The position numbers and the translations under genes are program-made. The notes under the pieces are model-generated. The model made no database searches, was not told the origin of the DNA, and saw only the letters and a program-made list of their open reading frames with translations. A stretch of 64,000 bases of DNA from Bacteroidota bacterium. GTDB taxonomy: Bacteria; Bacteroidota; Bacteroidia; Chitinophagales; Saprospiraceae. Of this stretch, positions 223 to 19,660 are shown piece after piece (the first letter of the stretch is position 1; each line of letters starts with the position of its first letter). The stretch lies in assembly GCA_029781865.1 (NCBI GenBank), contig JAKOVW010000062.1, positions 1 through 64,000 of the forward strand. Direction: 5' to 3'.

Positions 223-254
223 CTTTCACACGAATTTATAATTAGCGATGTTTC

Positions 255-675: not shown

Positions 676-707
676 CTTTCACACGAATTTATAATTCGCG
701 ATGTTTC

Positions 708-3700
708 TTAATTGCGCTCAATCATCAATTGCGCTGTTTTTTGTTTTTCTGTATCTGATACTCTGATTAAATAGACACCAGTATGTACACCTAATCGTTG
801 TAAATCCAATTCCAACTGATTCTGTTTGGCTTCAACCCGTACACTGAATACCAGTTTGCCATACAGATCAAACATCGTAACTGTCTTTTGATGATTTTCG
901 AATCCTTCAATCAATACGGTTGTAAACTCATTTGCAGGATTCGGTACAAATACCAGGTTAGTTGGCAATTCTAAATGATTATTTTCCTTTTCATTGGATA
1001 CTCGGCTATCAATACTTCCCTGGAAGGGAACAGGTAAGGTATGGAACCAATCATTTATCGCGGCTGATGTTGACATTCCACAAATAGTTCTAATCTGGTA
1101 ATTGTAAAAACTATTTGCATCGAGTCCGGTGTATTGATGCAACAATCCAGGACCACTGGCTGGTGTCCAGGCTGACCAGGGTCCCCATACTCCCGGCGAT
1201 AATTCTTTTCTGATTCTCAGTTCATATGCTGTTCCACATTTGCCTGCGACCCATTTTACTTTTGCTGAATTGAACGTTGTATCATAATGCAATACCTGTA
1301 TAGGTGTTCCGCATGAATAAGCAGTTACAGTTACTTTCTGATTGCAGGTCGCTGTGTTGCCACTCATATCTGTAACCTTCCAGGTTACTGTTGTCATCCC
1401 TACCGGATAAGAAGACAATCCGTTATTTGTTACAGTTGTCATTCCACAGTTATCTCCAACACCTGTTGGATTTCCTAATATCAAACCTGATACTGAACAC
1501 TGACCAGGCAATGTAATTACGGTAAGATTTGGAGGACAGGTGATCGTTGGCAATTCTGTGTCTTTCACTTCAATTGTAAACATGCATGTATTCATGTTTC
1601 CATTTACATCTGTTGCCTTCCATAATGCTGTGGTAATTCCTTTATTCAACATTACTCCGTTTAAGGTTGCTAATCCACTTCCAGTTGTTGCACCAGACAA
1701 GGTGCAGAGCAATGTAGAAATACCGCAGGCATCCGATGCGGTTGCATTGAATTCCGTACCTGATACAGTGTATTTGCATACACCGGCAGCTGTGTTGCGT
1801 GTTGCATTTCCAGGACAATTTATCGTTGGCAATTGTGCATCGGTTACTGTTACTGTGAATGAACAAGTTGCAGTATTTCCGGACATATCCGTTGCCGTGT
1901 AAGTAACTGTCGTCATTCCAACATTGAAAGTGGAACCCGGATTTTTATTCGTAGTAAATGAACTGATCATGCAATTGTCAGTTGCCGTGGGTGCAACCCA
2001 ATTCACTGTTGCAAAACACTGATTTACATCTGTGTTTTGTGCAATATTACCCGGACAACCATTGATTACCGGTAATTGATTATCATTAACTGTTACTGTA
2101 AACGTGCAAGTCGTTTTATTGTTGGATGCATCCGTAGCTGTATAATTTACCGTTGTAACTCCTTTAGAAAATGTTGAGCCCGGTGCAAAATTAGAAGTGA
2201 AGGAAACTCCCGGACAATTATCTGAAGCCGTTGGAGCAACCCAGGTTGCAGTAGTACTGCACACACCGGGATCTGTATTCTTCACTATATTGGATGGACA
2301 ACCAGTAATGATCGGATTCTGATTATCAATAATCGTAATCGTAAATGAACAAGTTGCCGTGTTTCCTGCTGCATCAGTTGCTTTCCAACTCTCTGTTGTT
2401 ACTCCAACTGGAAAAATCTGACCGGATCCTAAACCACTGGACAATGTTGTTCCAACTCCAGGGCAATTATCACTTGCTGTTACCGAATAGGTGATGACTT
2501 TACCACAAACTCCAGTCACCGCAAAATCAGTAATGTTGGATGGGCAAGTAATCTTCGGCAATTCATTGTCATTAACAGTAACTGTAAATGAACAGCTGGC
2601 CGTATTACTGCTTGCGTCTGTTACCTTCCACGTGTTTGTGGTTACCCCTTTAGGAAATGCGGAACCACTAGACAAACCTGCTATCTGCATATTTGATTGC
2701 CCGGGACAATTATCTGATGAGTTTACAGAATAACTAAAAGTGGCACTACACAATCCTGGATTTGTATTCAGAGTAGTACTTGCCGGACATGTGATCTTTG
2801 GCAATTCAGCATCATTTACGGTAATAGTAAAAGAGCAAGTTGCATCAGGCGCGCAGCCATTTGTAGCTGTTATGGTAACATTAGTAATTCCTTTATTAAA
2901 ACTTGAACCTGAACCGGTACCAGATCCACTGCCCATAGTTGCTCCTGAAAATACATAGGAATAGGTTGGAGCCGGAGATCCCGTTGCCGAGGCAGTATAT
3001 GAAACAGTCGCAGCACAGGTTGATGGAGCTGTATTGACGGTTACATTTCCAGGACATGGAGAAAAAGAAGGTGGAGTACAAGGTGGATTTACTGTGATTG
3101 AACCCATTGAAGTAATATTTCCGCAACCTCCCGTAAGTGTTACTGTATAATTGAACACTCCAGTTGTAGTTGGTGAACCATTTATGGTTACCAGATTACC
3201 AGCCCAGTTGCCACTGACACCAGGAGGCAAACCGGCAAACATGGCACCTGTTGCACCTGTGGTTGCATAATTAATAGTTGTTATTGGAGTCATTAGAATG
3301 ACTGTTTGTGCATCTGTACCGGGAGCTGAAGTTAATGTGGATGTATTGTTTGGATTTACAGTTACTGTTATGCAATTGCTGTTTGCTGTACATGGAAATC
3401 CACCAAGTGTGCTGGTGGTTACCCTCCTGTAAAAAGTAGTATTCAATAAACCCGCCGGAGGATCGTAGGTTGTTGCATTTGCACCTCCGATATCACTGAA
3501 ACCTGCTGAACAATTTGTTGTACTGCTCTGCCATTGATACGTTAGTGTTCCACTTCCGGTGGATGCTACACTTTGAGTAAATGCTGCAGGGTCAGCCGGA
3601 GTGCAAATTGTTTGGTCTGATCCTACAGTTCCACCCGTAACGGCATTAACCGTAACAGTTATACAATTGCTAAATGCAGTACATGGAACACCACCGAGTG

Positions 3701-5684
3701 TACTTGTCGTAACACGCCTGTAGTAAGTAGTTACTGTCAGTCCAACAGGTGGGTCATACGTTGTTGACATTGCCCCGCCGATATTACCAAAGCCACTCGA
3801 ACAATTTGTAGTACTACTCTGCCACTGATAGGTCAATGCACCACTTCCGGTTGATGCTACACTTTCAGTAAAAGCAGCCGGATCACCTGCCGAACAAATC
3901 GTTTGATCTGTTCCGACGGTTCCACCCGTTACGCTATTAACAGAGAGAGAAGCATTTGCAGAAGTTGCAGTTCCGCACTGATTGCTGGCAACTACATTAT
4001 AATTAGAAGCAGCATCACCGACTTGTACATTGGTAATGGTAAGAATATTTGTCCCTTGTCCTGACACAGTGGATCCGGAAGCCTGTAGTCCATTTACCAA
4101 AGGCGTAGATCCGATATTCCATACAATTGTCGGGGCCGGTGTACCTGTAATAGTTGAGATAAACATCACTGTACCACCAACGCATGATATCGCATTGGCC
4201 GGATTGGTCACAGTTGGTATTGTATTCACAGTAATATTTGCTCTTGCCGGAGTTGCTTCCGATGAAGGCACATTATCTACCTGTGCATTAACTGTAGCTA
4301 CTCCACCTGTTCCATTTGAAGTAAATAAAGCTGTTGCTGTTCCGGATGCCTGTATTGAAAACTGCTGCGCTGAAAGGCTTCCCAATGTTGATGTCCACGC
4401 AACAGGTAATCCAATTAACCTTGATAGACTGTCAACCGGAATCGAAGTTCCACTTGAATTTTTTAAAAAGCTGGCTGTAACGTTAGATGTATTTCCAAGA
4501 CCAGCTGCAGTATTACAAATCGGATTTGGTGACGCGGTGACTTTTAATTGTAGCCAGGGATCGGCATCCAAAGAACCTCCGCCAGCTACATCTCCGCCAG
4601 CCTGGTTGCATGGAGCGGTAGAACTGGCACCAACCGGATTTGTGTTACAACCCCACCAATTGTTTTCTGCATTTACACTTCCGGCAGACTCAACAAAATG
4701 CAGGCCACTGGACAATGCTGATGCGGCGCTTGTATTATTATAAAACCGGTTATAATGTATTTGTGATATAGACAAATTTGGAGAGTTGTTTGCAGAAATA
4801 GCTCCACCTAAACCGTCTGCTGAATTATTACTAAATGTATTATGACTAATCATGACACTGAATGTACCCACGATGCCCCCTTGACCTGAAAAAGCAAGCG
4901 CACCGCCATTGGATGTACCTGCGCCCGGGAAGATCACTGAATTTCCAGTAAACGTAGAATGCGTTACAACCAGATCACCCTGATATCCAGGGTTATTGAA
5001 AATGATAAATAAAACGGCTCCGCCATCGGCGTCATTACTGACATTATTTGTAAAAGTAGAATTATCAATCGTTAAGCTTCCGGAAACCTGCATACAAACT
5101 GCTGCCCCACCAAAAGCATTAGCAGGAAGCACATTATTATCAAATACGCAATTGGAAATACTTAGAAAATTACCTGTACCTCCACCGGCACAGATTCCTG
5201 CACCTCCATAAGGATCAGAACTTAAGTAGCCATTTTGAAATTTAATACCCTGAACAATTGTAACAACATTGTTTGTAGTACCAAGCGGATTGATAAATAA
5301 TATACGATCCTTATCTGCATCAAGAGTATTGCTTATTATAGTATTTGCAGGACCATTACCATTGATTGTTATATTTTGTGATGTATTTCCAATTGTTATC
5401 TCTCTGTTTGGAATAGCCTGCGTCAAATTGTACGTTCCGGTTGACAAGTTAACTGTATGGGTCCCTCCCAAATTATCTGCAGCCATCAGAGCAGATCGAA
5501 GAGAAATAGTACTTCCTCCGTTAATTTTACCGGTGGCATTATCCAGTGTCATTATAACAGGATCTGCAAAAGTATTAGGAACATATACATTCGCTATTCC
5601 TATTGAGGAAAAGAGCATTGAGTATAAGAATACCAAACCATAACTAATGGAGTTATTTACATGGAACTTATTTAATGATTTCAT
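708..5684 (-). CDS. Giant secreted beta-helix/Ig/HYR-repeat protein with T9SS sorting domain
   Basis: The 1658-aa product has an N-terminal hydrophobic export signal (residues ~12-32). Residues ~40-390 form a beta-helix-like region with a CSLREA-like start (ISLRSALMAAD) and many N/G turns, as in polymorphic outer-membrane-type adhesins. Residues ~400-880 are Ig-like and include two nearly identical ~95-aa units starting VTGGTVG. About seven HYR (hyalin repeat) domains follow, each opening with CPxN or CPAS. Next come an FN3-like domain (PIQVLHYDTTF...) and a type A T9SS sorting domain (FVPNPANEFTTV...). The C-terminal half closely matches the genes ending at 12434 and 16700. It is predicted to be exported by Sec, crosses the outer membrane through T9SS and is displayed on the surface. 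An adhesive or matrix role is inferred from domain type only. It may be co-transcribed with the tail-collar genes 98 bp upstream. Confidence 0.85.
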   Translation of the reverse strand: MKSLNKFHVNNSISYGLVFLYSMLFSSIGIANVYVPNTFADPVIMTLDNATGKINGGSTISLRSALMAADNLGGTHTVNLSTGTYNLTQAIPNREITIGNTSQNITINGNGPANTIISNTLDADKDRILFINPLGTTNNVVTIVQGIKFQNGYLSSDPYGGAGICAGGGTGNFLSISNCVFDNNVLPANAFGGAAVCMQVSGSLTIDNSTFTNNVSNDADGGAVLFIIFNNPGYQGDLVVTHSTFTGNSVIFPGAGTSNGGALAFSGQGGIVGTFSVMISHNTFSNNSADGLGGAISANNSPNLSISQIHYNRFYNNTSAASALSSGLHFVESAGSVNAENNWWGCNTNPVGASSTAPCNQAGGDVAGGGSLDADPWLQLKVTASPNPICNTAAGLGNTSNVTASFLKNSSGTSIPVDSLSRLIGLPVAWTSTLGSLSAQQFSIQASGTATALFTSNGTGGVATVNAQVDNVPSSEATPARANITVNTIPTVTNPANAISCVGGTVMFISTITGTPAPTIVWNIGSTPLVNGLQASGSTVSGQGTNILTITNVQVGDAASNYNVVASNQCGTATSANASLSVNSVTGGTVGTDQTICSAGDPAAFTESVASTGSGALTYQWQSSTTNCSSGFGNIGGAMSTTYDPPVGLTVTTYYRRVTTSTLGGVPCTAFSNCITVTVNAVTGGTVGSDQTICTPADPAAFTQSVASTGSGTLTYQWQSSTTNCSAGFSDIGGANATTYDPPAGLLNTTFYRRVTTSTLGGFPCTANSNCITVTVNPNNTSTLTSAPGTDAQTVILMTPITTINYATTGATGAMFAGLPPGVSGNWAGNLVTINGSPTTTGVFNYTVTLTGGCGNITSMGSITVNPPCTPPSFSPCPGNVTVNTAPSTCAATVSYTASATGSPAPTYSYVFSGATMGSGSGTGSGSSFNKGITNVTITATNGCAPDATCSFTITVNDAELPKITCPASTTLNTNPGLCSATFSYSVNSSDNCPGQSNMQIAGLSSGSAFPKGVTTNTWKVTDASSNTASCSFTVTVNDNELPKITCPSNITDFAVTGVCGKVITYSVTASDNCPGVGTTLSSGLGSGQIFPVGVTTESWKATDAAGNTATCSFTITIIDNQNPIITGCPSNIVKNTDPGVCSTTATWVAPTASDNCPGVSFTSNFAPGSTFSKGVTTVNYTATDASNNKTTCTFTVTVNDNQLPVINGCPGNIAQNTDVNQCFATVNWVAPTATDNCMISSFTTNKNPGSTFNVGMTTVTYTATDMSGNTATCSFTVTVTDAQLPTINCPGNATRNTAAGVCKYTVSGTEFNATASDACGISTLLCTLSGATTGSGLATLNGVMLNKGITTALWKATDVNGNMNTCMFTIEVKDTELPTITCPPNLTVITLPGQCSVSGLILGNPTGVGDNCGMTTVTNNGLSSYPVGMTTVTWKVTDMSGNTATCNQKVTVTAYSCGTPIQVLHYDTTFNSAKVKWVAGKCGTAYELRIRKELSPGVWGPWSAWTPASGPGLLHQYTGLDANSFYNYQIRTICGMSTSAAINDWFHTLPVPFQGSIDSRVSNEKENNHLELPTNLVFVPNPANEFTTVLIEGFENHQKTVTMFDLYGKLVFSVRVEAKQNQLELDLQRLGVHTGVYLIRVSDTEKQKTAQLMIERN

Positions 5685-5782
5685 TTTGACGAATTGGTTA
5701 AAGAATGATTATATTAAAATACAACTGCTATTTAATCAGCAAAAACTACAATTGCCCTTAAGTGAAGAAGCAACTTACTTCT

Positions 5783-6313
5783 TTACGTTCTTGGAGGAAA
5801 AACCCCCTGAAGAGCAATATTAAAGTAAAAGGTATTGTATGGCATCATGTTATTATGCGGAAAACTTTGGCCATTATTGGCCAATGCCAAAGGATTCATA
5901 ATTACTGGTGGATTTGCGACGGCAGGCGCATAGAAATTTGCTGCCACTTTGGTGGCATTGGATGTGCCCCAGACCATATTTGTTGGGTTGGCAATTCCAC
6001 CGGCTACTTTCGCATTGGCCGCATGGGTATGTGATGGCATTTCTGAAATGATCAATGTGACCGTTTGGACTCCCCCTTGTTCACCCAGTGAACGGAAGGA
6101 AAGCCCCGGACCTTGACCGTCAAACATAGCAGCTCTGCCTTGAAGGTCTGGTAATGCGAATGTCGATTTCCCATCGCCCCCATACGTAGTTCCCAATAGT
6201 GAAAACAGCGCCGTATTCTGGCTGATGGGTAATAACTGACCATTACACCAGGCCCAGCCTTTGGGAGCAAAATTGAAAGGAAATATTCTTATTTCTGCTA
6301 CAAATGGATCCAT
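5783..6313 (-). CDS. Phage tail collar domain protein (third of triad)
   Basis: This 176-aa protein belongs to the tail-collar (microcystin-dependent protein MdpB-like) family. Visible motifs are EIRIFPFNFAPKGWAWCNGQ at the N-terminus, LFSLLGTTYGGDG, LPDLQGRAAMF, a central PSHTH, and a C-terminal NTFYFNIALQGVFPP. The length is typical of non-phage members, which usually come as tandem sets of three. It lies 24 bp after the preceding collar gene and no structural phage gene is present nearby. There is no Sec signal peptide. The function of the bacterial family is not established; a role as a secreted or particle-associated trimeric tip is inference. Confidence 0.85.
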   Translation of the reverse strand: MDPFVAEIRIFPFNFAPKGWAWCNGQLLPISQNTALFSLLGTTYGGDGKSTFALPDLQGRAAMFDGQGPGLSFRSLGEQGGVQTVTLIISEMPSHTHAANAKVAGGIANPTNMVWGTSNATKVAANFYAPAVANPPVIMNPLALANNGQSFPHNNMMPYNTFYFNIALQGVFPPRT

Positions 6314-6337
6314 ATCAGCGTATTATTAATTATGAAA

Positions 6338-6838
6338 TTAATTTGAAGAAGGAAATATCCCCTGTAGTGCGATACAAAAATTCAGCACCAGGTAAGGAGA
6401 TCTATTTTCATGTGGTTGGCTTCCACCAGTATTTCCAATAGCCTGTGCCGACATTGCTGTATCAGCAACAGTTCCATATGGAGTGAAACCAGTATTCGAA
6501 GCCCAGAAATTATTTGAGGGTGAAGAAACTGAAGGTCCATTAGCACTGGCCCTGACCTGATGCGTATGAGCAGGCATTTCATTTAAATTCAGGGTATGGT
6601 TTTCTTCGCCGGCCTTATCTCCCAAATTCAATCCATCACCCACATGCATAGGCACGCGGCCGCGCAATTCAGGCAAACCGAAATTAACACGCCCATCTCC
6701 ACCAAAAGTAGTTCCGAGTAGAGAGAATAATGCCTGATTTTGATTGATAGGAAGTAATTGCCCATTGCATTGAGCCCAACCCTTTGGTGCAAAGTTGAAA
6801 GAGAAAATCCGTATTTCAGATAATAGAGGTTCAGCCAT
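6338..6838 (-). CDS. Phage tail collar domain protein (second of triad)
   Basis: The 166-aa product is a paralogue of its two neighbours. It has EIRIFSFNFAPKGWAQCNGQ at the start, then LFSLLGTTFGGDG, LPELRGRVPMH, PAHTHQV, and a C-terminal PHENRSPYLVLNFCIALQG. It overlaps neither neighbour (49 bp from the first, 24 bp to the third), so one transcript is likely. No signal peptide or membrane segment is visible. The conserved GW-x2-C-x-G and H-T-H motifs are those of the tail-collar family, where His residues in phage tip proteins can hold metal. Whether that holds here cannot be seen. Confidence 0.85.
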   Translation of the reverse strand: MAEPLLSEIRIFSFNFAPKGWAQCNGQLLPINQNQALFSLLGTTFGGDGRVNFGLPELRGRVPMHVGDGLNLGDKAGEENHTLNLNEMPAHTHQVRASANGPSVSSPSNNFWASNTGFTPYGTVADTAMSAQAIGNTGGSQPHENRSPYLVLNFCIALQGIFPSSN

Positions 6839-6887
6839 TTTATTGAATTTAAGTTGTACTAAATTTAATTCTCATCGAATACCCATT

Positions 6888-7403
6888 TTAGGATTGACTT
6901 GGGAAAATCCCAAATAAAGAAATGATATACGATACACATAGGAAGGGAATCATATTCTCATGAGGCTGACTACCCCCTTGAGGTAAAATAGTTCCGGCAT
7001 TCATCTGAACGGTAGGAGGGGCAGCAACATAGGGTTTGCCTGTAGCCGAATTTCCCCAGAAATTATTTGCAGGGTTATCACTACCTCCGGAATTGGATGC
7101 ATTTGGAGTATGAGAATGTATAGGTATTTGATTCGGGGATAGTGTAACTACTTCTACTCCTCCAGATTCTCCAATAACATAACTTGATAATCCCGGGCCC
7201 TGTCCCTGATGAATAGGTACACGACTCCTGAGGTCCGGTAAGGCAAATGAATCCTGACCGTCACCACCATAGGTGGTGCCAATTAATACAAAAAGTGTAT
7301 CGTATTGAGAAATTGGAAGTAATGAGCCGTCGCAAAACATCCATCCGGCAGGGGCAAAATTACCTGCAAACATCCTGATCTCTCCAACATAAGGCTGTGC
7401 CAT
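6888..7403 (-). CDS. Phage tail collar domain protein (first of triad)
   Basis: The 171-aa product is the upstream member of the triad. Its motifs are EIRMFAGNFAPAGWMFCDGS, LFVLIGTTYGGDG, LPDLRSRVPIHQGQGPGL, IPIHSHTP, and PHENMIPFLCVSYIISLFG. It is separated by 180 bp of AT-rich sequence from the formyltransferase gene upstream on the same strand, so a promoter for the triad could lie at 7404-7583. All three copies differ substantially in the central SHTH-to-PHEN segment, which is the expected variable tip, while the N-terminal ~60 residues are well conserved. Confidence 0.85.
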   Translation of the reverse strand: MAQPYVGEIRMFAGNFAPAGWMFCDGSLLPISQYDTLFVLIGTTYGGDGQDSFALPDLRSRVPIHQGQGPGLSSYVIGESGGVEVVTLSPNQIPIHSHTPNASNSGGSDNPANNFWGNSATGKPYVAAPPTVQMNAGTILPQGGSQPHENMIPFLCVSYIISLFGIFPSQS

Positions 7404-7583
7404 AATAAAATGTTTGTTTTTAAAAAAGAAGGTATAACATCATTTAGGATGTTCTTTTTCAAAGATTAAAACTACATCATATATATTAATCAACCAAAAA
7501 AAATGCTCCATTCTTAAATTTTATTTAGCAAGTACCGATTCTCATAAAATGCATTGTTCCAATAAATTCAAGAAACATTTTGA

Positions 7584-8522
7584 TTAAAAACCTTCAAACC
7601 GATTACCCGGCATTATTCCTAACTTGATTAAATCGTTCGCCAAAAGAAAACCTTCATCACAGTAAACCATGCGGATCAGTATGGCACCCCCATTTAGAGT
7701 GGAAACACAGATGCCCTCATTTCCGATAGTACGGATATTACCAGGTTCTTGTATTGAGTCTTTGTTCTCTGCTAGCTTTACGGCATCCAATAGACGTATG
7801 ACCTGGTTATTAATTTTGGTTACCGCACCTTTATTCCAAGGATTGCAGGCATGTATCAAAGCAATCACGGCATCAGCATTCATGGTTTGCCAGTTTACGA
7901 CGATATCCGCAGCCTGCTGCCTTTTGTAATACCTGGCTTTGGTTTCATCCTGAGGCTTCAAAGCAATGTTCAATTCCATGTTCAATAACTTGATCAAATT
8001 ACCGGTCAATTTGGCAGCAAGATTTGCAAGTTTTGTGGTTAACCAGCCATAGGTATCTGTTGGATCAATTTTTAGCATTTCTATAATTACCAAAGGTCCG
8101 GTGTCAATGCCAACATCTATTTTGTGTAGAGTTACTCCTGCCTGCTTTTCCTGATTCACTAATTGCCGGAAGACGGGATCAGCTCCCCTGTATTGAGGCA
8201 ATGGCCCCGGATGAAGATTATAAAACCCCAATAAAACGCTATCGAAAACAGAGGAAGGAATTTTAAAGGGAAAAGTCAAGACAAGGCCAAGATTAATTTC
8301 ATTAGTTCGTATAGCCCCGGCAATTTCAGCAGCAAATGTATTTTTGTCCAGCTTCAACACGGGAATATTTGTGCCCTGTAAAATGGTTTCTACATTTTCT
8401 ATAATCTCATCACAGTAAGCTGGTATTGCAACAATTGACAACATCCTATAAAATGCCAGTTCTTTTATGGCAGGCAATGCAAACCTCGAACTGCACAATA
8501 GTATAATTTTTAAATCCTTCAT
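7584..8522 (-). CDS. Formyltransferase family protein (Fmt-like fold)
   Basis: This 312-aa enzyme has the formyl-transferase N-terminal domain. It carries the catalytic triad pattern Asn102-x-His104 in FYNLHPGPLPQYRG and Asp140 in VGIDTGPLV. The C-terminal ~100 residues match an Fmt C-terminal-like domain. Family members transfer formyl from 10-formyl-tetrahydrofolate to a primary amine. The context argues against housekeeping Met-tRNA formylation: it follows a binding-protein-like gene by 3 bp and precedes the tail-collar triad. A sugar, peptide or small-molecule amine substrate is more likely. It has only distant similarity to the second formyltransferase at 61521. Confidence 0.8.
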   Translation of the reverse strand: MKDLKIILLCSSRFALPAIKELAFYRMLSIVAIPAYCDEIIENVETILQGTNIPVLKLDKNTFAAEIAGAIRTNEINLGLVLTFPFKIPSSVFDSVLLGFYNLHPGPLPQYRGADPVFRQLVNQEKQAGVTLHKIDVGIDTGPLVIIEMLKIDPTDTYGWLTTKLANLAAKLTGNLIKLLNMELNIALKPQDETKARYYKRQQAADIVVNWQTMNADAVIALIHACNPWNKGAVTKINNQVIRLLDAVKLAENKDSIQEPGNIRTIGNEGICVSTLNGGAILIRMVYCDEGFLLANDLIKLGIMPGNRFEGF

Positions 8523-8525
8523 GAT

Positions 8526-9677
8526 TTAATAACAGAGATAGGTGTTTGTCCATCCTGAACTCACTCCTTCAGTTGAATTAGCCACAAATGATTTCCATTC
8601 TTGTTCGGGAAATTCTATTTGCTCAATGGACAGCACGCCTGATTGTTGAGAAACGACACATGAATAAACCGGAGCCGTAAAATAATTGGTTTCCGTATCG
8701 AGATTCAATACGCCACGTGGACTGTTGATGCTTTTACCTGCAAGATTTCCAACAATCTGAATTCCATCTGCATAATTTTCAGCACTGCTTAAAAAGACCT
8801 GGTGCAGGATCAAACCGGATTCCCACCCGAGTAGCGAAAAAATGGTCGGCTGTTTATTTGTTTTTTGCTGATAACTCTTAATAAAATCCTGATTCGCATT
8901 ATTTTCTAAGGATATATGCCAGGGCAGGTATCCTGCTATTGAAAAATCAAATCCAGCTTTAAGAGGTTCTAGTGCTTTTTCTTCCAACATCATTGGCGAA
9001 ACAAATAGATGCAAATTCCTTGCTTCTGCATAGTTTCTCAAACACAAATAGAACAAAGAAGCAGGAAGGGAATCGAAGATACATAGCAAGCCATTAGACT
9101 CTTTATCAGAAATCAGAAAATCTGTTAACTGCTTAATTTCAAATGCATCGTCATAGCGTTGATTATTTATGTAATTAAAGGAAATGTGCCCTCCGCTATT
9201 TACAAATGCTTTAACCATTGCTGCCGTGTGAAGGTAGCCGCAATCGTAGAATGTACTTGCCATCACGGAATTCGTGATATTCTTCGACGCAGCCTGTTTT
9301 CCTGTCAACCAACATAAAAAGCCGTGTTGTAGGGATAAGTTTAGAATATTTGGCTGAGGAATCCAGTTTTCGGGGTAATTCGCACCAGGATTCACAATCA
9401 GAATCAACCTGCCTGATGCAAAGAACAGTGGCTTAATAAGCTCCAGGATCCGGAGATCCAAAAAAGCTACCAGTACATCTACCCCCTCTATTATAAGCAG
9501 CTTCTCTGCTTTTTCATAAACCTCTTTTTCTACCCCACCATATCCAATAGTCTCTGAGATCAGTTGAGCTGTATTATTCTTTTGGAAATGGCCCAAAGCG
9601 GCTTTGATCCCTTCTATAAAATCAAACATAATACCTGGATGAGCTTTGGAGCGTGGGTAAAGAATACCTATTTTCAT
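8526..9677 (-). CDS. Periplasmic-binding-protein-like (type I fold) protein without signal peptide
   Basis: The 383-aa product resembles ABC-transporter amino-acid-type substrate-binding proteins (Peripla_BP_6/receptor ligand-binding class). It opens KIGILYPRSKAHPGI, has VDVLVAFLD in the first lobe, and ends with a NSPRGVLNLD motif typical of the family's C-terminal lobe. There is no signal peptide or lipobox, because the protein starts directly with the first beta-strand, so a cytoplasmic location is predicted. No permease or ATPase gene is nearby. It lies 3 bp before the formyltransferase gene on the same strand, indicating tight co-expression. It may be a small-molecule sensor or carrier for the enzyme encoded next to it (inference). 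Confidence 0.65.
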   Translation of the reverse strand: MKIGILYPRSKAHPGIMFDFIEGIKAALGHFQKNNTAQLISETIGYGGVEKEVYEKAEKLLIIEGVDVLVAFLDLRILELIKPLFFASGRLILIVNPGANYPENWIPQPNILNLSLQHGFLCWLTGKQAASKNITNSVMASTFYDCGYLHTAAMVKAFVNSGGHISFNYINNQRYDDAFEIKQLTDFLISDKESNGLLCIFDSLPASLFYLCLRNYAEARNLHLFVSPMMLEEKALEPLKAGFDFSIAGYLPWHISLENNANQDFIKSYQQKTNKQPTIFSLLGWESGLILHQVFLSSAENYADGIQIVGNLAGKSINSPRGVLNLDTETNYFTAPVYSCVVSQQSGVLSIEQIEFPEQEWKSFVANSTEGVSSGWTNTYLCY

Positions 9678-10602: not shown

Positions 10603-10912
10603 TCAGATGATACGCCCTCTGATATAAATATCAGGCCCCTTGATCCCTTTAGATCAAAACTTCTTATTTAGCCTGTGGTGAGACTGCATTTACAATCAAA
10701 AGATATTATTGAATTTTTTTGATTCTGAATTTAATATTTGGATGTCCGTAATGTTTAATATATTTTAGCAATCTATACTTTAATAATTTCGAAATTCATC
10801 CCTCGTTAATCGTTATTCGATAATGTGATCATAATTTTAAGCTCAATCCTAATATTGGTGGAATAACAAACATCCATTCTCAAATGATTTTTCAGAAGTA
10901 ACACGATATCAA
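10603..10912. other. Intergenic, no gene seen
   Basis: This 310-bp AT-rich stretch lies between two plus-strand genes. The only structure noted is a small palindrome, TTGATC (10640-10645) with GATCAA (10652-10657), 38 bp after the preceding stop. No oligo-T tract follows, so it is not a convincing terminator. No open reading frame with coding character was seen. Confidence 0.5.
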
Positions 10913-11566: not shown

Positions 11567-11589
11567 AAATGAATGTCCACCATCAGATC

Positions 11590-12335
11590 TACAATGATTA
11601 CACCCCCTACAATCATTTCACCCCGTCGGGGTTGGACGTAACTTGTATGGAATTATGATTTCAATTCTATTTATTCAACCCCGAAGGGGTGACAATATTG
11701 TAATAAATGATCGCATTTACGTTGAACCCTGAAAGGATGACATTATTTTTTTGCAATCTTATTATATCATGACACCCTTACAATCATGTCACCCCTTCGG
11801 GGTTTGACGTAACTTGTATGGAATTATGATTTCAATTCTATTTATTCAACCCCGAAGGGGTGACACTATTGTAATACGCGATCTCATATACGTTGAACCC
11901 TGAAAGGGTGATATTATTTTTTCATTCTTCTATAATCGTTTCACCCCTTCGGGGTTGGATTGATGATAATCTTATTGATTTTCTATTCCCAATCTTTACA
12001 TTCAACCTCGAAGATGTGACATTTTTGTAACACATCATCTTGTCCAGGTTGAACCCTGAAAGGGTGACATTGTTTTTTGCAATCTTCTATAATCGTTTCA
12101 CCCCTTCGGGGTTGGATGTGTTGCAGCGATCGCGATTCGTTGCTACAATCATTTCATCCCTTCGGGGTTGGATTTACGTAACTCTTATGAAATTATAATT
12201 TCAATTCTATTTATTCAACCCCGAAGGGGTGACACTATTGTAATACGTGAACACATATACGTTGAACCCTGAAAGGGTGACATTATTCTTTGCAATCTTC
12301 TACAATCATTTCACCCCTACTTCAGGGTTTATATT
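11590..12335. repeat. Palindromic repeat array R2 downstream of the second HYR gene
   Basis: This gene-free region has about a dozen copies of the ACCCC/GGGGT palindromes in both orientations, plus ACCCTGAAAGGGT-type hairpins. It shares the CGTAACTTGTATGGAATTATGATTTC lead-in class at 11637 and 11808, and a diverged copy at 12177. Spacing is irregular compared with the strict 92-bp arrays at 362-454 and 15821-16096. It lies between the convergent ends of the YkgJ-like gene and the HYR gene ending at 12434. Confidence 0.8.
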
Positions 12336-12366
12336 CATGTTGATTCAGACAGGGAATTTTAAAACG

Positions 12367-12401
12367 AAAAACGGGATCCCTGATGCAGGAATCCCGTTTT
12401 T
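12367..12401 (-). terminator. Hairpin terminator of the second HYR gene
   Basis: AAAAACGGGAT (12367-12377) pairs with ATCCCGTTTTT (12391-12401), with an inner CCTGATGCAGG extension. It is 33 bp beyond the stop at 12434 on the minus strand and nearly identical to the element at 641-675. Confidence 0.85.
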
Positions 12402-12433
12402 CTTTCACACGAAATTATTATTCGCGATTTTTC

Positions 12434-15220
12434 TTAATTGCGCTCAATCATCAACTGAGCTGTCTTTTGTTTTTCTGTATCTGAAACTCTGATTAGAAAG
12501 ACACCTGTATGTACGTTTAATCGTTGTAAATCCAATTCCAATTGATTCTGTTTTGCTTCAACCTTTACACTGAATACCAGTTTGCCATACAAATCAAACA
12601 TCGTAACGGTCTTCTGGTGATTTTCAAATCCTTCAATCAACACTGTTGTAAATTCATTTGCAGGATTCGGTACAAATACCAGGTTTGTTGGCAACTCTAC
12701 ATTGTTGCTTTCCTTTTCATTGGATACCCTGTTATCAATACTTCCATTAAACGGAACTGGCAAAGTATGGAACCAATCATTTATTGCTGCTGAGGTTGAC
12801 ATTCCGCAAATGGTTCTTATCTGATAGTTGTAAAAACTATTTGCATCCAGTCCGGTATATTGATGCAACAATCCAGGGCCACTGGCTGGAGTCCAAGCTG
12901 ACCAGGGACCCCAAACACCGGGTGATAATTCTTTTCTGATTCTCAACTCATACGCTGTTGCACATTTTCCTGCGACCCATTTTACTTTGGCTGCATTGAA
13001 TGTCGTATCATAATGCAATACCTGTATTGGTGTTCCACATGAATATGCATTTACAGTAACTTTCTGATTACAGGTTGCAGTGTTGCCACTCATATCTGTA
13101 ACTTTCCAGGTTACTGTTGTCATCCCTACCGGGTAAGAAGTCAATCCATTATTAGTCACTGTTGTCATTCCACAATTATCACCTACACCTGTCGGATTAC
13201 CCAATACCAATCCCGATACGGAACACTGACCCGGTAAAGTGACCACAGTGAGATTCGGAGGACAGGTGATCGTTGGCAATTCATTATCTTTCACTTCTAT
13301 GGTCAACATGCAGGTGTTCATGTTTCCATTTGCATCTGTTGCTTTCCATAGCGCGGTTGTAATTCCTTTATTCAACATTTGTCCGCTTAATGTTGCCAAT
13401 CCACTACCGGTTGTTGCGCCGGACAAAGTGCAAAGCAATGTAGAAATACCGCAAGCATCCGATGCGGTTGCATTAAACTCTCCATCATTGACTGTGTACT
13501 TACACACTCCTGCTGCTGCATTGCGCGTGGCATTACCCGGACAAGTTATCGTTGGCAATTGTGCATCGGTCACTGTTACTGTGAACGAACAGGTTTTGGT
13601 ATTACCGGACATATCCGTTGCAGTATAGGTAACTGTCGTCATTCCAACATTGAATGTGGAACCCGGATTTTTATTCGTAGTAAATGAACTAATCATGCAA
13701 TTGTCAGATGCGGTTGGTGCTACCCAATTCACGGTTGCAAAACATTGATTCACATCTGTATTTTGTGCAATATTGCCCGGACAACCATTGATCACTGGTA
13801 ATTGATTGTCATTAACCGTTACTGTAAATGTGCAGGTCGTTTTATTGCTGGATGCATCCGTTGCCGTATAATTTACTGTAGTAACTCCTTTTGAAAATGT
13901 AGAGCCCGGTGCAAAATTGGATGTGAATGAAACTCCGGGACAATTATCTGACGCTGTTGGAGCGACCCAGGTTGCTGTAGTATTACATACTCCGGGATCA
14001 GTATTCTTCACTATATTGGATGGACAACCCGTAATGATCGGATTTTGATTATCCACAATAGTTATTGTGAATGAACAAGTTGCAGTATTGCCAGACGCAT
14101 CTGTTGCTTTATAAGTTTGAGTAGTAACACCAACAGGGAATATCTGACCTGAGGTAAGCCCTGAACCATCAATTTGTGTTATTGTAATTGGCAAACAGGT
14201 TCCTGTTGCTGAAACCACATAAGTAATGACTTTACCGCATACACCTGTTACAGCAAAATCTACAATATTTGAAGGACATGATGTAAACGTGGGCGCAGTA
14301 CAATTTTGGTAAGTAATTTTAACCAGTCCATTTCCAGTTCTAACTCCTGCCATTACAACTCCATTTGTAACACCAGCGGTACTTGAAGAGCCACCTGCTC
14401 CTCCGCCACCGCCACCTTTATTATTTCCATTGCAGCTTGTAGTTCCGGCCGAACCGCCGCCGCCGCCGCCGCCGCCGACATTGCCGCCGCCGCCGCCGCC
14501 ACCGCCTGGGATGCTTCCAAAAGTAAAGCAGCAACAACTTTGACCACCTCCACCATTAGCTCCATTTTCATTTGAACTATTCAATCCCGGCAAACCTAAA
14601 AATCCTGAACAGCCTATACCAGCAGCTCCACCTGTAACACCTACACCCGGAAAACCTCCGCCTCCGTCAGGTGAATCAGTACCTTTTATTCCATTACCAT
14701 CACCTGTTCCTCCATTTCCTCCATTTGGCGAACTCATTTCACAACCTCCACGGCCACCGCCACCGCCGCCAGCTCCTACTATTTTACGATCTGAAGCTAA
14801 AGTACCTGGAGTTCTAACATCACTTGCACCGCCGCCACCGCCTGCGTTTGCAGATCCTCCTGTACCTCCTCCGTTAAAACCTCCGGTTGGCGTTCCTCCT
14901 GCTCCACCCACGAATATATTCAGAATTTGACCTGGTACAACAGCCAAGGTTCCTGTAGCCTTTGATCCATTTCCCCCGGCACCACCATTACTATTTCCAC
15001 CAACTGCTCCTGACCCACCCTGGGCCCCATTGCACTCTATGTCAACGGAAACTACGCCTGCCGGTACTGTGAATGTTTGCATTCCTCCGGTGTAATTAAA
15101 GGTTACAGTAGTCTGAGCATAATTTAGTTTACATAATATCAGAATAAAAAGCAAGGTCAAGTTTAAGCTCAGATTTTTGAGCTTAGAACCATGTTTAAGA
15201 TTTGAAGATTGGTTTTTCAT
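12434..15220 (-). CDS. Secreted glycine-rich/HYR protein with T9SS sorting domain
   Basis: The 928-aa product has a hydrophobic signal segment (~residues 18-36). Residues ~37-305 are glycine-rich, opening TFNYTGGMQTFTVPAGV, which resembles the ALK/LTK-type glycine-rich domain (Pfam Gly_rich) with runs of GGGGG. Five HYR domains follow, then an FN3-like domain and a T9SS type A sorting domain ending QLMIERN. From the first HYR domain onward it is highly similar to the genes ending at 708 and 16700, while the N-terminal domain is unrelated to theirs. The glycine tract is encoded by GCC/GGC triplet runs near 14453-14510. It is predicted to be surface-exposed, perhaps as a structural or adhesive tip on a conserved stalk (inference). 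Confidence 0.85.
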   Translation of the reverse strand: MKNQSSNLKHGSKLKNLSLNLTLLFILILCKLNYAQTTVTFNYTGGMQTFTVPAGVVSVDIECNGAQGGSGAVGGNSNGGAGGNGSKATGTLAVVPGQILNIFVGGAGGTPTGGFNGGGTGGSANAGGGGGASDVRTPGTLASDRKIVGAGGGGGGRGGCEMSSPNGGNGGTGDGNGIKGTDSPDGGGGFPGVGVTGGAAGIGCSGFLGLPGLNSSNENGANGGGGQSCCCFTFGSIPGGGGGGGGNVGGGGGGGGSAGTTSCNGNNKGGGGGGAGGSSSTAGVTNGVVMAGVRTGNGLVKITYQNCTAPTFTSCPSNIVDFAVTGVCGKVITYVVSATGTCLPITITQIDGSGLTSGQIFPVGVTTQTYKATDASGNTATCSFTITIVDNQNPIITGCPSNIVKNTDPGVCNTTATWVAPTASDNCPGVSFTSNFAPGSTFSKGVTTVNYTATDASSNKTTCTFTVTVNDNQLPVINGCPGNIAQNTDVNQCFATVNWVAPTASDNCMISSFTTNKNPGSTFNVGMTTVTYTATDMSGNTKTCSFTVTVTDAQLPTITCPGNATRNAAAGVCKYTVNDGEFNATASDACGISTLLCTLSGATTGSGLATLSGQMLNKGITTALWKATDANGNMNTCMLTIEVKDNELPTITCPPNLTVVTLPGQCSVSGLVLGNPTGVGDNCGMTTVTNNGLTSYPVGMTTVTWKVTDMSGNTATCNQKVTVNAYSCGTPIQVLHYDTTFNAAKVKWVAGKCATAYELRIRKELSPGVWGPWSAWTPASGPGLLHQYTGLDANSFYNYQIRTICGMSTSAAINDWFHTLPVPFNGSIDNRVSNEKESNNVELPTNLVFVPNPANEFTTVLIEGFENHQKTVTMFDLYGKLVFSVKVEAKQNQLELDLQRLNVHTGVFLIRVSDTEKQKTAQLMIERN

Positions 15221-15560
15221 TTAAGTATGATTGAGTTTAAGTAAATTATTATTTGCATGGAAAACAATCTGGAATGCAGATATTCTTGAATTACCTTTCA
15301 AAAAGACCTAATAACCAACGACATATGATTGTTTATTGTGTAAAAATGATTTGCCAATTCTAATGAAAAGCTATAAATCGAACCAAAAATAAATGGATTC
15401 GGTGAATATATTTAGATTTAATATATCTATTTTTTATAAATATAAGGAATTTCCAAGAGGTGAATTGACATCAATGAAATTCTTTATAATTCTCTCGATT
15501 TATAAAAAATCAATAGATCCGGAGAAATTCAAACAGAGAATATCCAATAAATTTATGACC
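15221..15560. other. AT-rich upstream region of the second HYR gene
   Basis: No gene is convincing here. A minus-strand match to the Bacteroidota -7 box (TATTTTTG, read at 15391-15384) lies 164 bp before the start codon. No clear -33 element was seen at the expected distance. A plus-strand reading frame at 15393-15692 runs into palindromic repeats and is not coding-like. Confidence 0.35.
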
Positions 15561-16600
15561 ATGTCAGCCCTGCAATCATGTCACCCCTACAATCATGTCA
15601 CCCCTTCGGGGTTTGGATACATTGGCACAATTGAGATTCTTTACTATAATTATTTCACCCCTTCGGGGTTCGATCATTCTTACAATTATTAGTTTCGTTT
15701 AAATTCACCAATTAAGAAATCACTCATAATTCAGATCTCATAAATCAGATTTCATCCTCCTCAACATTTTATTGTAAGATCATTACACCCCTATAATCAT
15801 GTCACCCCTTCGGGGTTTGACGTAACTCGTATGCAATTATGATTACAATTCTATTTATTCAACCCCGAAGGGGTGATACTACAATTATTTCACCCCTTCG
15901 GGGTTAGGTTGACGTAACTCGTATGCAATTATGATTACAATTCTATTTATTCAACCCCGAAGGGGTGACACTACAATTATTTCACCCCTTGGGGTTGGGT
16001 TGACGTAACTTGTATGGAATTATAATTACAATTCTATTTCTTCAACCCCGAAGGGGTGACACTACAATTATTTCACCCCTTCGGGGTTGGGTTGACGTAA
16101 CTCGTATGCAATTATGATTTCAATTCTATTTCTTCAACCCCGAAGGGGTGACACTATAATTATTTCACCCCTTCGGGGTTCGATCATTCATACAATTATT
16201 AGTTTCGTTTAAATTCACCAGTTAAGAAATCACTCATCACTCATAGTTCAGATCTCATAACTCAGATTTCATCCTCCTCAACATTTCATTGTAAGATCAT
16301 TATACCCCTACAATCATGTCACCCCTACAATAGTGTCACCCCTTCGGGGTTTGATGTAACTTGTATGGAATTATAATTTCAATTTTACTTATTCAACCCC
16401 GAAGGGCTGACACTACAATTATTTCACCCCTTCGGGGTTGGGTTGACGTAACTTGTATGGAATTATAATTACAATTCTATTTATTCAACCCCGAAGGGGT
16501 GACACTATTGTAGTTAGCGATCACATATACGTTGAACCCTGAAAGGGTGAAATGATTTTTTTCATTCTTCGAAAATCATGACATCCCGTCGGGGTTTATA
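15560..16600. repeat. Palindromic repeat array R3 with 92-bp tandem units
   Basis: This is the largest array in the window. From 15821 there are four tandem units whose conserved CGTAACT starts lie at 15821, 15913, 16004 and 16096, spaced 92, 91 and 92 bp. A second run starts at 16355 and 16447, again 92 bp apart. Each unit carries AACCCCGAAGGGGT and the inverted ACCCCTTCGGGGTT. The segment 15668-15820 (GATCATTCTTACAATTATT onward) recurs at 16181-16354, so a ~510-bp block containing the tandem units was itself duplicated. No gene is present. Confidence 0.85.
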
Positions 16601-16632
16601 TTCAGGTTGATTCAGTCATGCAATCATAAACG

Positions 16633-16668
16633 AAAAACGGGATCCCCTTTTACAGGAATCCCGTTTTT
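16633..16668 (-). terminator. Hairpin terminator of the third HYR gene
   Basis: AAAAACGGGAT (16633-16643) pairs with ATCCCGTTTTT (16658-16668). It lies 32 bp beyond the stop at 16700. The stem matches those at 641 and 12367, while the loop has diverged. Confidence 0.85.
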
Positions 16669-16699
16669 CTTCACACGAATTTGTTATTCGCGATTTTTC

Positions 16700-19660
16700 T
16701 TAATTGCGCTCAATCATCAACTGAGCTGTCTTTTGTTTTTCTGTATCTGATACTCTGATTAGATAGACACCTGTATGTACGCCTAATCTTTGCAAATCCA
16801 ATTCCAATTGATTCTGTTTTGCTTCAACACGTACACTGAATACCAGTTTGCCATACAGATCGAACATCGTAACGGTCTTTTGATGATTTTCAAATCCTTC
16901 AATCAATACGGTTGTAAACTCATTTGCAGGATTCGGTACAAAGACCAGGTTCGTTGGCAATTCCACATTGTTGCTTTCCTTTTCATTGGATACTCTGTTA
17001 TCAATACCTCCCTGGAATGGTATAGGCAAGGTATGGAACCAATCATTTATTGCTGCTGAGGTAGACATTCCACAAATGGTTCGTATCTGGTAATTGTAAA
17101 AACTATTTGCATCCAATCCGCTGTATTGATGTAATAATCCTGGCCCACTTGCCGGAGTCCATGCTGACCAAGGGCCCCATACTCCGGGTGATAATTCTTT
17201 TCTGATTCTCAACTCATAAGCTGTTGCACATTTTCCTGCAACCCATTTTACTTTGGCTGCATTAAATGTTGTATCATAATGCAATACCTGTATTGGTGTT
17301 CCGCATGAATATGCTGTTACAGTTACTTTCTGATTGCAGGTTGCGGTATTACCACTTGCGTCTGTAACTTTCCATGTTACTGTAGTCATTCCTACCGGAT
17401 AAGAAGACAATCCATTGTTTGTTACCGTAGTCATTCCACAATTATCTCCTACCCCTGTTGGATTACCTAATATCAAACCTGATACCGAACACTGACCAGG
17501 TAAAGTAATTACTGTTAGATTTGGCGGACAGGTGATTGTTGGCAATTCGGTGTCTTTTACCTCAATGGTTAACATGCACGTATTCATGTTTCCGTTTACA
17601 TCTGTCGCTTTCCATAATGCAGTTGTAATTCCCTTATTCAACATTTGTCCGTTTAATGTTGCCAATCCACTTCCCGTTGTTGCACCTGATAAAGTGCACA
17701 GTAATGTAGAAATACCGCAGGCATCTGATGCAGTTGCATTAAATTCTGCTCCTGATACGGTGTATTTGCATAGACCGGCAGCAGTGTTGCGCATTGCATT
17801 TCCAGGACAATTAATAGTTGGCAATTGTGCATCGGTCACTGTTACAGTGAATGAACAAGTCTTGGTATTTCCTGACATATCCGTTGCCGTATAGGTAACT
17901 GTAGTCATTCCAACATTGAATGTGGCACCCGGATTTTTATTCGTAGTAAATGAACTGATCATGCAATTATCCGATGCAGTGGGTGCAACCCAATTTACAG
18001 TAGCAAAGCACTGGTTCGCATCTGTGTTTTGTGCAATATTTCCGGGGCAACCATTGATTACCGGCATTTGATTATCATTAACCGTCACTGTAAATGTGCA
18101 GGTTGTTTTATTGTTGGATGCATCTGTTGCTGTATAATTTACAGTTGTAACACCTTTGGAAAATGTAGAGCCAGGTGCAAAATTGGAAGTAAAGGAAACT
18201 CCCGGACAATTATCAGATGCAGTTGGTGCAACCCAGGTTGCAGTTGTATTACACACACCCGGATCAGTATTCTTCACTATGTTGGATGGACAACCGGTGA
18301 TGATCGGATTCTGATTATCAATGATTGTTATGGTAAATGAACAGGTTGCTGTTGCGCCATTTGCATCCGTTACCTTCCATGTTTGCGTAGTAACACCGAC
18401 AGGAAAAATTTGTCCTGATGTCAAACCGGTACCATCTATTTGAGTTAATGTAAGAGGATTTGTTCCACCGGATGCAGTAACTGTATATGTAATCACTTTT
18501 CCACAATTACCAGGAATAGCAAAATCACTTATATTACCCGGACAAGTAATTTGCGGAGGTGAACCCATACAATTTGAAACGGTGACCACAGCAGACGCAA
18601 ACGTATCAGCCGGATTGCAATTGTTTTTGAAAACCACATAGCTGTTAAATGTTCCACAGGAGGTATAGGTATGTGTTTTATTTGCAGGCGTAAACAATGT
18701 ATCATGAGCACCATCCCCCCAATGATAGATTAATGTATCAAATGATAAACCTGCATAAGTCCAGGTCACTGTTTGATTGACATTTATATTCGTATTTGAA
18801 ACGGAGAAATAAGGAGGCATAACTAAACCTCTCAAATCGTCCGGATTAGCTCCAAATTGAGCACCCCATCCACCAGCAGCTGTACAATAATTAAATGTGG
18901 ATTGTATAGTTGAAATGATGAATGTTGAATTTCCTAAATACAGCGCACCGAATGTTTCACCATGTGTACTACCGCTTATTGGAATATCGGTTACCGTATA
19001 TGGTGGTGATGATTGTACTTTTTCATAAACGACAGTACCATTTCCGCTCCAGTGGTAAAAAAAGCCATCCGTAAAGTTGTAACTTAATATTTCTCCGTCT
19101 GCACCATTACCCAAATGCACAGCAAGTGTTGTTGCTGCAGTTGTTTTATCAATCATGTACATGGTCTCACCATTGGCACCACCATCTCCGACAACACCAA
19201 AAAGTTGCCCGTCACCTCTGAAAGTTATCGTGCTGAAGTTATCACCCAGGTTTCCAATCTGTGTACATACTCCTGATTCCAAATCAATTTTTGCGAGGAC
19301 ACGGCCACTTACGCCACTTAATTTCAGAACACAATAGGTTTCATGAGCACAATGATCCCAGGCTAAACTATTAATACCGGTAATGGTAAATCCGGCCAGA
19401 GTTGGTCCAACATGTGCTACTATTGACCAGTTAGATGTGTCCACCGCCCATAATGAATCCTGAAATGGTGAAGCCCCCCAGAGAAATGGGCCATTGCCCG
19501 GAGGTGGTGCTAAAGGAGCAGGACTTTGAATGCTTGTTCCTGAATTTTTAGTAATCTTAGGATCCGCGGAGAATCCTGAAAAAAGGAAAAATAGCACTGC
19601 AATACAGGAAATGTTATATGCTACCTGCATATACCGATTTTGAGTTTTAATTGGCTTCAT
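16700..19660 (-). CDS. Secreted propeller-like/PKD/HYR protein with T9SS sorting domain
   Basis: The 986-aa product has a membrane-type signal (~residues 14-32). Residues ~55-290 read like a beta-propeller (PFLWGASPFQDSLWAVD, DLESGVCTQIGNL, and similar strands). Next is a PKD domain with a WGDG motif and THTYTSCG, then five HYR domains, an FN3-like domain and a T9SS sorting domain ending QLMIERN. The C-terminal ~600 residues are near-identical to those of the genes ending at 708 and 12434, although many codons differ silently, so selection has kept the protein sequence. The likely role is surface display of a variable head on a shared stalk. It is divergent from the CDS-repeat gene at 20668. 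Confidence 0.85.
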   Translation of the reverse strand: MKPIKTQNRYMQVAYNISCIAVLFFLFSGFSADPKITKNSGTSIQSPAPLAPPPGNGPFLWGASPFQDSLWAVDTSNWSIVAHVGPTLAGFTITGINSLAWDHCAHETYCVLKLSGVSGRVLAKIDLESGVCTQIGNLGDNFSTITFRGDGQLFGVVGDGGANGETMYMIDKTTAATTLAVHLGNGADGEILSYNFTDGFFYHWSGNGTVVYEKVQSSPPYTVTDIPISGSTHGETFGALYLGNSTFIISTIQSTFNYCTAAGGWGAQFGANPDDLRGLVMPPYFSVSNTNINVNQTVTWTYAGLSFDTLIYHWGDGAHDTLFTPANKTHTYTSCGTFNSYVVFKNNCNPADTFASAVVTVSNCMGSPPQITCPGNISDFAIPGNCGKVITYTVTASGGTNPLTLTQIDGTGLTSGQIFPVGVTTQTWKVTDANGATATCSFTITIIDNQNPIITGCPSNIVKNTDPGVCNTTATWVAPTASDNCPGVSFTSNFAPGSTFSKGVTTVNYTATDASNNKTTCTFTVTVNDNQMPVINGCPGNIAQNTDANQCFATVNWVAPTASDNCMISSFTTNKNPGATFNVGMTTVTYTATDMSGNTKTCSFTVTVTDAQLPTINCPGNAMRNTAAGLCKYTVSGAEFNATASDACGISTLLCTLSGATTGSGLATLNGQMLNKGITTALWKATDVNGNMNTCMLTIEVKDTELPTITCPPNLTVITLPGQCSVSGLILGNPTGVGDNCGMTTVTNNGLSSYPVGMTTVTWKVTDASGNTATCNQKVTVTAYSCGTPIQVLHYDTTFNAAKVKWVAGKCATAYELRIRKELSPGVWGPWSAWTPASGPGLLHQYSGLDANSFYNYQIRTICGMSTSAAINDWFHTLPIPFQGGIDNRVSNEKESNNVELPTNLVFVPNPANEFTTVLIEGFENHQKTVTMFDLYGKLVFSVRVEAKQNQLELDLQRLGVHTGVYLIRVSDTEKQKTAQLMIERN

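Follow-up and report, generated by a model that had tools for sequence, protein, structure and literature searches.

Unlike heads on one conserved stalk: three neighbouring predicted type IX surface proteins in a Saprospiraceae genome

Introduction

How have three neighbouring genes come to end in nearly the same protein and to begin in entirely different ones? The question is raised by genes A, B and C, which all lie on the minus strand within 19 kb of the window, that is, the whole 64-kb stretch of DNA analysed here, a part of contig C19 of an assembly of 4.5 Mb in 93 contigs. An earlier note on this DNA, whose coordinates and strands for the three genes were correct, had seen in them a cassette system for diversifying surface heads. 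We favour another answer, to which we give a probability of about 0.63: A, B and C form a lineage-specific family of type IX surface proteins, in which a 3′ module spread behind unlike heads and was kept by selection. The genes and their parts are as follows.

708..5684, minus strand: gene A (1658 aa); beta-helix-like head with an Ig domain, then HYR repeats, the shared stalk and a T9SS type A sorting domain
12434..15220, minus strand: gene B (928 aa); glycine-rich head, then HYR repeats, the shared stalk and a T9SS type A sorting domain
16700..19660, minus strand: gene C (986 aa); beta-propeller head (supported by modelling), PKD-like stretch, HYR repeats, stalk, T9SS type A sorting domain
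711..2330, minus strand: stalk unit of A, 540 codons (from HYR-2 through the FN3-like region to the sorting domain)
12437..14056, minus strand: stalk unit of B, 540 codons
16703..18322, minus strand: stalk unit of C, 540 codons
2331..2570, minus strand: HYR-1 of A, homologous, though close to saturation at silent sites; it meets the stalk at about 2330/2331
14057..14296, minus strand: HYR-1 of B, junction with the stalk as in A
18323..18562, minus strand: HYR-1 of C, junction with the stalk as in A
20668..23808, plus strand: divergent neighbour of gene C, T9SS type A cargo

Results

Domains and heads

The HYR family PF02494 matched six, five and five stretches in A, B and C, respectively (Pfam). 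All three proteins carry a sorting domain recognized both by PF18962 (39.3–42.2 bits, cut-off 27) and by the NCBIfam type A model TIGR04183 (35.8–40.7 bits, cut-off 23), and each translation shows a hydrophobic stretch near its N-terminus. With limits of E ≤ 0.5 for the tail of A and E ≤ 0.01 for the complete A, B and C proteins, Pfam gave no fn3 match; a homologous M36 protein of the relative G007 has a sub-threshold fn3 match (18.9 bits, cut-off 25).

The heads were said to differ completely, and they are indeed unrelated, the first being beta-helix-like with an Ig domain, the second glycine-rich and the third a probable beta-propeller. Their individual labels fared less evenly. In gene A, the Ig domain was placed by Pfam at residues 495–582, and the beta-helix label comes from the appearance of the sequence and a sub-threshold Chlam_PMP repeat. 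Head B had been called ALK-like, a label that was not upheld: at E ≤ 5 its only Pfam match was a sub-threshold one, to a plant-virus protein (E 0.15). The PKD match of head C was found only below the threshold (Pfam). The propeller label of head C stood: an AlphaFold2 model built from a three-sequence alignment has a propeller-like fold (pLDDT 77, pTM 0.82; the model from the single sequence reached a mean pLDDT of only 38), and the best PDB matches of this model in Foldseek, with TM scores of 0.49–0.60, include BtuG2, an entry titled beta-propeller lactonase and TolB. BtuG2 and TolB are both propellers. The predicted fold supports the assignment of head C as a beta-propeller.

Extent of the shared 3′ unit

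The best local protein alignments among A, B and C all reach the C-terminus and cover 615–628 residues at 91.2–92.6% identity (BLAST); with B as the query and A as the subject, the alignment stretches to 669 columns at 86.5%. Within this length the last 540 codons show 95–96% protein identity, and HYR-1 (codons 560–625 from the stop) just 58–66%. The near identity that had been reported for some 550–600 C-terminal residues was thus confirmed, but the length was not, the sharp unit being one of 540 codons. At the DNA level, identity amounts to 88.9% over 2032 bp for A/C, 87.5% over 2009 bp for A/B and 86.3% over 2047 bp for B/C. The homology stops inside HYR-1 at one end and continues past the stop codon into the terminator and the first array units at the other, the identical fraction of noncoding positions after the stop being 0.909 of 287 (AB), 0.893 of 289 (AC) and 0.846 of 286 (BC). 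The 5′ flanks of the three genes gave no match to each other at E ≤ 1e-5.

Silent divergence and the edge of the unit

Substitution rates were estimated with a simple Nei–Gojobori script with Jukes–Cantor correction, which is rough near saturation. The stalk dS was 0.65 (AB), 0.59 (AC) and 0.70 (BC), the corresponding dN 0.029, 0.022 and 0.028, and omega 0.045, 0.037 and 0.040; fourfold-degenerate sites were identical in 0.57–0.61 of cases in these pairs. The proposal that the shared part is maintained at the protein level by selection is borne out by these dN/dS values (0.037–0.045). By these measures the stalk is an old unit under strong purifying selection. A scale is provided by the relatives, each species being represented by one genome and the two key ones, the sister species G005 and G007, by metagenome bins. 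Between G005 and G007 the Mfd gene has a dS of 0.37 (96% amino acid identity) and the stalks of a giant gene described below have a dS of 0.29, values to be read with the different composition in mind, as GC3 is about 0.65 in the G005/G007 genes and 0.32–0.35 in A/B/C. Since the dS of the A/B/C stalks exceeds that of Mfd, the stalks are, counted in silent changes, no younger than the split of these two species.

Silent identity is not uniform along the genes. At positions where the amino acid agrees, the same codon is used in 65/165 cases in HYR-1 (0.39), in 780/1189 along the stalk up to its final 100 codons (0.66) and in 227/280 within those 100 codons (0.81), the value expected at saturation from stalk codon usage being 0.45. 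In 5000 column shuffles, which take no account of dependence between adjacent codons or between the three pairs, neither the contrast between HYR-1 and the stalk nor that between the stalk and its last 100 codons was ever reached. With codons counted from the stop, a single-breakpoint scan located the change at 541 for AB (p 0.001) and at 540 for both AC (p < 0.0005) and BC (p 0.21). The breakpoint therefore falls on the border of HYR-1 and HYR-2 in all three pairs and is significant in two of them. It supports the spread of the stalk, the terminator and the array as one unit, and with the homology running through the terminator and array it agrees with the common unit that the earlier note had described.

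Full-length tandem paralogues whose heads diverged past recognition would also lie on one strand, within 19 kb, and have a common gene end. We consider this origin quite improbable, since the silent divergence is uneven and breaks at codon 540, the 5′ flanks are without homology and the heads are of different kinds (beta-helix-like/Ig, glycine-rich and propeller). Moreover, the propeller of head C recurs in another genome, G010, where a segment of 55% identity lies inside a 2019-residue frame that runs off its contig.

Gene conversion and the rise of silent identity towards the 3′ end

The increase in silent identity over the last 100 codons was found in all three A/B/C pairs (Fisher p 0.025, 0.017 and 5e-5). 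The same comparison in three orthologous G005/G007 pairs was not significant (p 0.68, 0.13 and 1.0), and the increase is therefore not general to such genes. The 3′ drop in silent divergence may result from homogenization or from selection on RNA, not from selection on the protein. In the G005/G007 orthologues, from 85/126 to 125/130 of the first 130 noncoding 3′ bases are conserved.

The stalks contain 211 silent sites that are informative in the three-way comparison; A is the odd one at 54, B at 72 and C at 58, and all three differ at 27. The longest run of agreeing silent sites was that of AC (9 sites, p 0.0044, uncorrected for three pairs); no unusual run was found for AB (3 sites, p 0.98) or BC (4 sites, p 0.49). 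A shift in silent identity within the stalk was significant just for BC (codon 211, p 0.0005), and not for AB (p 0.12) or AC (p 0.07). The informative sites are mixed along the stalk and dS is 0.6–0.7, so that long recent conversion tracts are absent. Of the occasional gene conversion suggested earlier, the AC run is the only recent trace, a weak one at best. Old or short homogenization of the 3′ parts of the stalks is possible.

These data bear on concerted evolution, in which recurrent gene conversion anchored at the terminator and array would keep the stalks alike and fade towards the unlike heads. The stepwise increase in silent identity from HYR-1 to the last 100 codons fits this explanation, as do the noncoding 3′ identity of 0.85–0.91, the last-100-codon rise, significant in the A/B/C pairs only, the AC run and the BC shift. 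The mixed informative sites, the high dS and the non-significant AB and AC shifts speak against it, and selection on 3′ RNA offers an alternative cause, the noncoding 3′ ends being fairly conserved in the G005/G007 orthologues too. We regard it as an unlikely competitor of the spread of a selected module.

Terminators, palindromic arrays and the 3′ relic

Each gene had been said to share its terminator and its downstream palindromic array with the other two, and this was confirmed for A, B and C. The elements are listed below.

640..676, minus strand: terminator hairpin of A; positions 640-700 fold at -28.1 kcal/mol, z -6.6; conserved in A/B/C
12366..12401, minus strand: terminator hairpin of B; positions 12360-12425, z -7.2
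16632..16669, minus strand: terminator hairpin of C; positions 16625-16690, z -6.8; also found in the terminator scan
1..600: palindromic array downstream of A, up to the contig edge
11589..12330: palindromic array downstream of B
15560..16600: palindromic array downstream of C; at 15791-16180 some four 92-bp units stand in tandem
255..321, minus strand: relic, the last 22 codons at the 3′ end of a fourth stalk

The terminator scan returned 19 sites, compared with a mean of 15 in shuffles, and Rfam gave no match at gathering thresholds in window positions 1-26600. The 92-bp array units carry paired ACCCCTTCGGGGT-type palindromes, and the arrays flank A, B and C on the 3′ side only. With a 220-base array query, 71 matches were obtained in the own genome, on several other contigs as well (BLAST; many of them short or overlapping), six short ones in G001 and one in G004. 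In the five other clusters examined, the palindrome motif lies outside ORFs of at least 100 aa. The matches on several other contigs point to a genome-wide REP-like family with local amplification. An array unique to the stalk genes was considered and dropped: the exact long pattern is confined to the locus (seven places), but diverged copies were found elsewhere by BLAST.

Window positions 1-321 are a 96% identical copy of positions 454-774, comprising the last 22 stalk codons, the terminator and the array. The start of contig C82 carries an array similar to that of positions 1-321, so C82 and the window contig may be neighbours. In G005 (C49) and G007 (C5), a hairpin followed by an array of a different palindrome (GACCCC..GGGGTC, period of about 49 bases) stands behind the tail piece of the giant gene.

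Array and terminator could also act as a fixed 3′ anchor of recombination, with the stalk repeatedly homogenized from the 3′ side and crossovers at HYR borders admitting new heads in a slow exchange. To us this combination seems rather improbable.

Copy number and machinery in the own genome

A search of the own genome with the stalk DNA returned the three copies, the 22-codon relic, a match within A to HYR only and two short ones of some 35 bases each. The earlier note had called for such a search; the three full copies were found, but no reservoir of stalks. The head probes covered 380 aa of C, 307 aa of B and the first 405 aa of A, the middle of A lying outside, and each had one own-genome match at E ≤ 0.001. 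Among 60 relatives, the own genome included, the probes of C, B and A matched nine, nine and one, some of these matches being of the PKD or glycine-rich type only.

As a control, 64 sorting-domain-like ORFs were compared. They were picked by sequence pattern from 24 own-genome stretches, 20 of them around sorting-domain clusters, so that the set is neither random nor complete; some stretches cut genes at their edges, and the ORFs do not make up all of the 150 scored matches (306 candidates). Only A, B and C combined more than 85% C-terminal identity with more than 250 unmatched head residues. The next closest were a pair on C20 (66.5%) and tandem copies on C81 (54–71%). The C20 pair (G000:C20:1-19900) consists of neighbouring sorting-domain proteins of 1560 and 3633 aa, which share their 66.5% identity over the entire shorter protein.

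A Pfam scan of 32 further window proteins, four of them without a family at the thresholds, found no recombinase or transposase. Together with A, B and C these are all but three of the 38 ORFs (the three being two at 61521-63879 and one antisense to A), and the scan was confined to the window part of C19. The 32 proteins belong to housekeeping, surface and metabolic families. Positions 55166-60154 encode a C25 peptidase that scores above the cut-off for the NCBIfam putative type IX sortase PorU2.

The uniform 3′ unit, the nearby repeat arrays and the duplicated 3′ relic at 1-321 might suggest that heads are exchanged within a population by an active cassette or shufflon-like system. The genome contains just three stalk copies plus the relic and one match per head probe, the proteins scanned include no recombinase, the arrays are confined to the 3′ side of the genes, and the silent divergence is old. 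For these reasons the cassette system proposed in the earlier note is very improbable.

Genomic context

The order of sixteen window genes between 31414 and 51370 is the same in G004; the A/B/C segment lies past Mfd. The collinearity with G004 stops at Mfd, and beyond this gene (positions 26608-29970 and leftward) the genomes examined have several different gene sets. An island or an empty site for A/B/C was sought, and none is definable; in G005 and G007 the contigs break off no more than about 4 kb beyond Mfd. Between A and B, positions 5783-7403 contain three genes in tandem whose products have phage tail collar domains (PF07484).

The tail family in relatives

Strong matches to the tail were found in three of nine genomes of the genus, the own one, G005 and G007; the next best in the genus, in G004, is 31% identical (E 6.5e-9). 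At the family level, 14 of 398 genomes pass E ≤ 1e-15 with the tail, and three have matches below 1e-100. Mfd of G004, G005 and G007 is 76%, 68% and 67% identical to that of the own genome. G004 is thus the closest by Mfd and yet has only a weak tail match, so the distribution of the tail is patchy. In the tail tree, A, B and C form one clade (100/100) apart from the G005/G007 tails, which group as orthologous pairs; the other inner forks are weaker (bootstrap 85–88).

On single open frames of G007, the tail is joined to an M36 metallopeptidase, to an FG-GAP protein and to a repeat protein whose head has no Pfam family. G007 also has a tail piece with many HYR domains that opens a contig and a LamG/beta-helix/HYR piece that closes another, and in G005 the head piece and the tail piece are split over two contigs in the same way. 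We infer that the two pieces are parts of one giant gene, joined across the contig gap. Its stalk shows 50% aligned identity to that of A. Of these G007 genes, the repeat, FG-GAP and giant ones have orthologues in G005.

A homologue of the window gene at 20668-23808 divergently adjoins the giant head piece in both G005 and G007; among the own-genome stretches compared, this gene is the best match of the G007 neighbour (37% over 646 aa). Head C had no match among the G005/G007 ORFs at E ≤ 1. On the basis of this one neighbour at 37% identity and the presumed contig joining, the giant gene appears to hold the position of gene C with another head.

The giant head pieces of G005 and G007 are 88–96% identical in the six 50-column bins before a block of 340–385 residues and 88–100% in the bins after it, from residue 690 to 1888. 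The block itself (approximately residues 315-655 in G007 and 315-700 in G005) aligns at 24% over just 147 residues, and its GC3 is 0.26–0.56 per 50 codons in both species compared with 0.52–0.76 in the flanks. Judged by these alignments, a head block is replaced between the sister species, within one contig in each; the head piece in question would belong to the tail gene through the same joining across the gap. The FG-GAP pair keeps one head (72% identity in the first bin, then 82–98%), and the repeat-protein orthologues retain the same kind of head. Head exchange in related genomes is thus seen in the different heads on the tail family and in the replaced block, but not in these two orthologous pairs.

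In the repeat-protein pair (C9 and C28), the head dS between the two species is 1.39 and the tail dS 0.43, and the C9 head has a GC3 of 0.35 compared with 0.61 in its tail. The head dS of 1.39 was dropped as proof of exchange: in this repeat protein of greatly different lengths, the repeats may be misaligned.

Discussion

Genes A, B and C look like an old family assembled by recombining parts rather than the product of a dedicated head-swapping machine. In the course of events that we favour, a 3′ module consisting of HYR-2 onward, the FN3-like region, the type A sorting domain, the terminator and the first array units would have been placed behind three heads, probably by ordinary recombination or duplication, the border of the first and second shared HYR domains being the likely joining point. 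Transfer of the stalk onto the heads and transfer of heads onto the stalk both fit the data. After the spread, strong purifying selection has held the module near constant, and the lower silent divergence towards the 3′ end perhaps reflects limited homogenization. The stalk probably holds variable heads, which may bind ligands, off the cell surface, and the sorting domain would send all three proteins down one route of export and attachment. Dedicated machinery for head swapping is not needed.

Such a common route may be expected from what is known of this sorting signal. Type A sorting domains are all recognized by the PorV shuttle, as described in PMC12618676, and with their shared type A end the A, B and C heads should then take the same route.

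The locus is a mapped example, timed by silent changes that can still be read, of how surface proteins of Bacteroidota change their heads and keep the export and anchor end constant. The edge of the module is sharp at a domain border, and the pair of sister species shows a head block replaced between conserved flanks. Our literature search, which left subscription papers mostly outside, found no paper joining three or more of type IX secretion, C-terminal domain, HYR and Saprospiraceae; among the papers listed, only the one on gingipains has a title close to this arrangement.

The palindromes resemble the REP and BIME elements as these are described in PMC2817692 and PMC3116915: they are short, intergenic, present in several places of the genome and arranged in composite arrays. 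Unlike those elements as described there, the local array units of A/B/C are 92-bp tandems. Fibrillar adhesins of the CshA/B-like type offer a likeness in the shuffling of adhesive domains among multidomain surface polypeptides reported in PMC10952558. The domains described for them are other ones, however, and A, B and C keep one stalk across neighbouring genes of one genome.

In the RgpA, Kgp and HagA proteins of Porphyromonas gingivalis, as outlined in PMC5266723, an Arg-specific protease, a Lys-specific protease or none precedes shared C-terminal modules and a sorting domain, and the diversity of the family arises from domain rearrangement and allelic exchange. Like them, A, B and C would be type IX cargo with unlike N-termini before a common C-terminal module. 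The shared modules of gingipains are, in that description, cleaved adhesin and DUF2436 domains, partly in identical repeats, whereas A, B and C share HYR domains with deep silent divergence in a unit that includes the terminator and the array; cleaved adhesin and DUF2436 are absent from the Pfam families of A, B and C at E ≤ 0.01. Exchange at the strain level is reported there for gingipains, whereas the block replacement seen here is one between two sister species, each represented by one genome. Among the systems compared, and as far as these are described in the sources cited, the modular type IX proteins of the gingipain/HagA type are the closest known kind to A, B and C.
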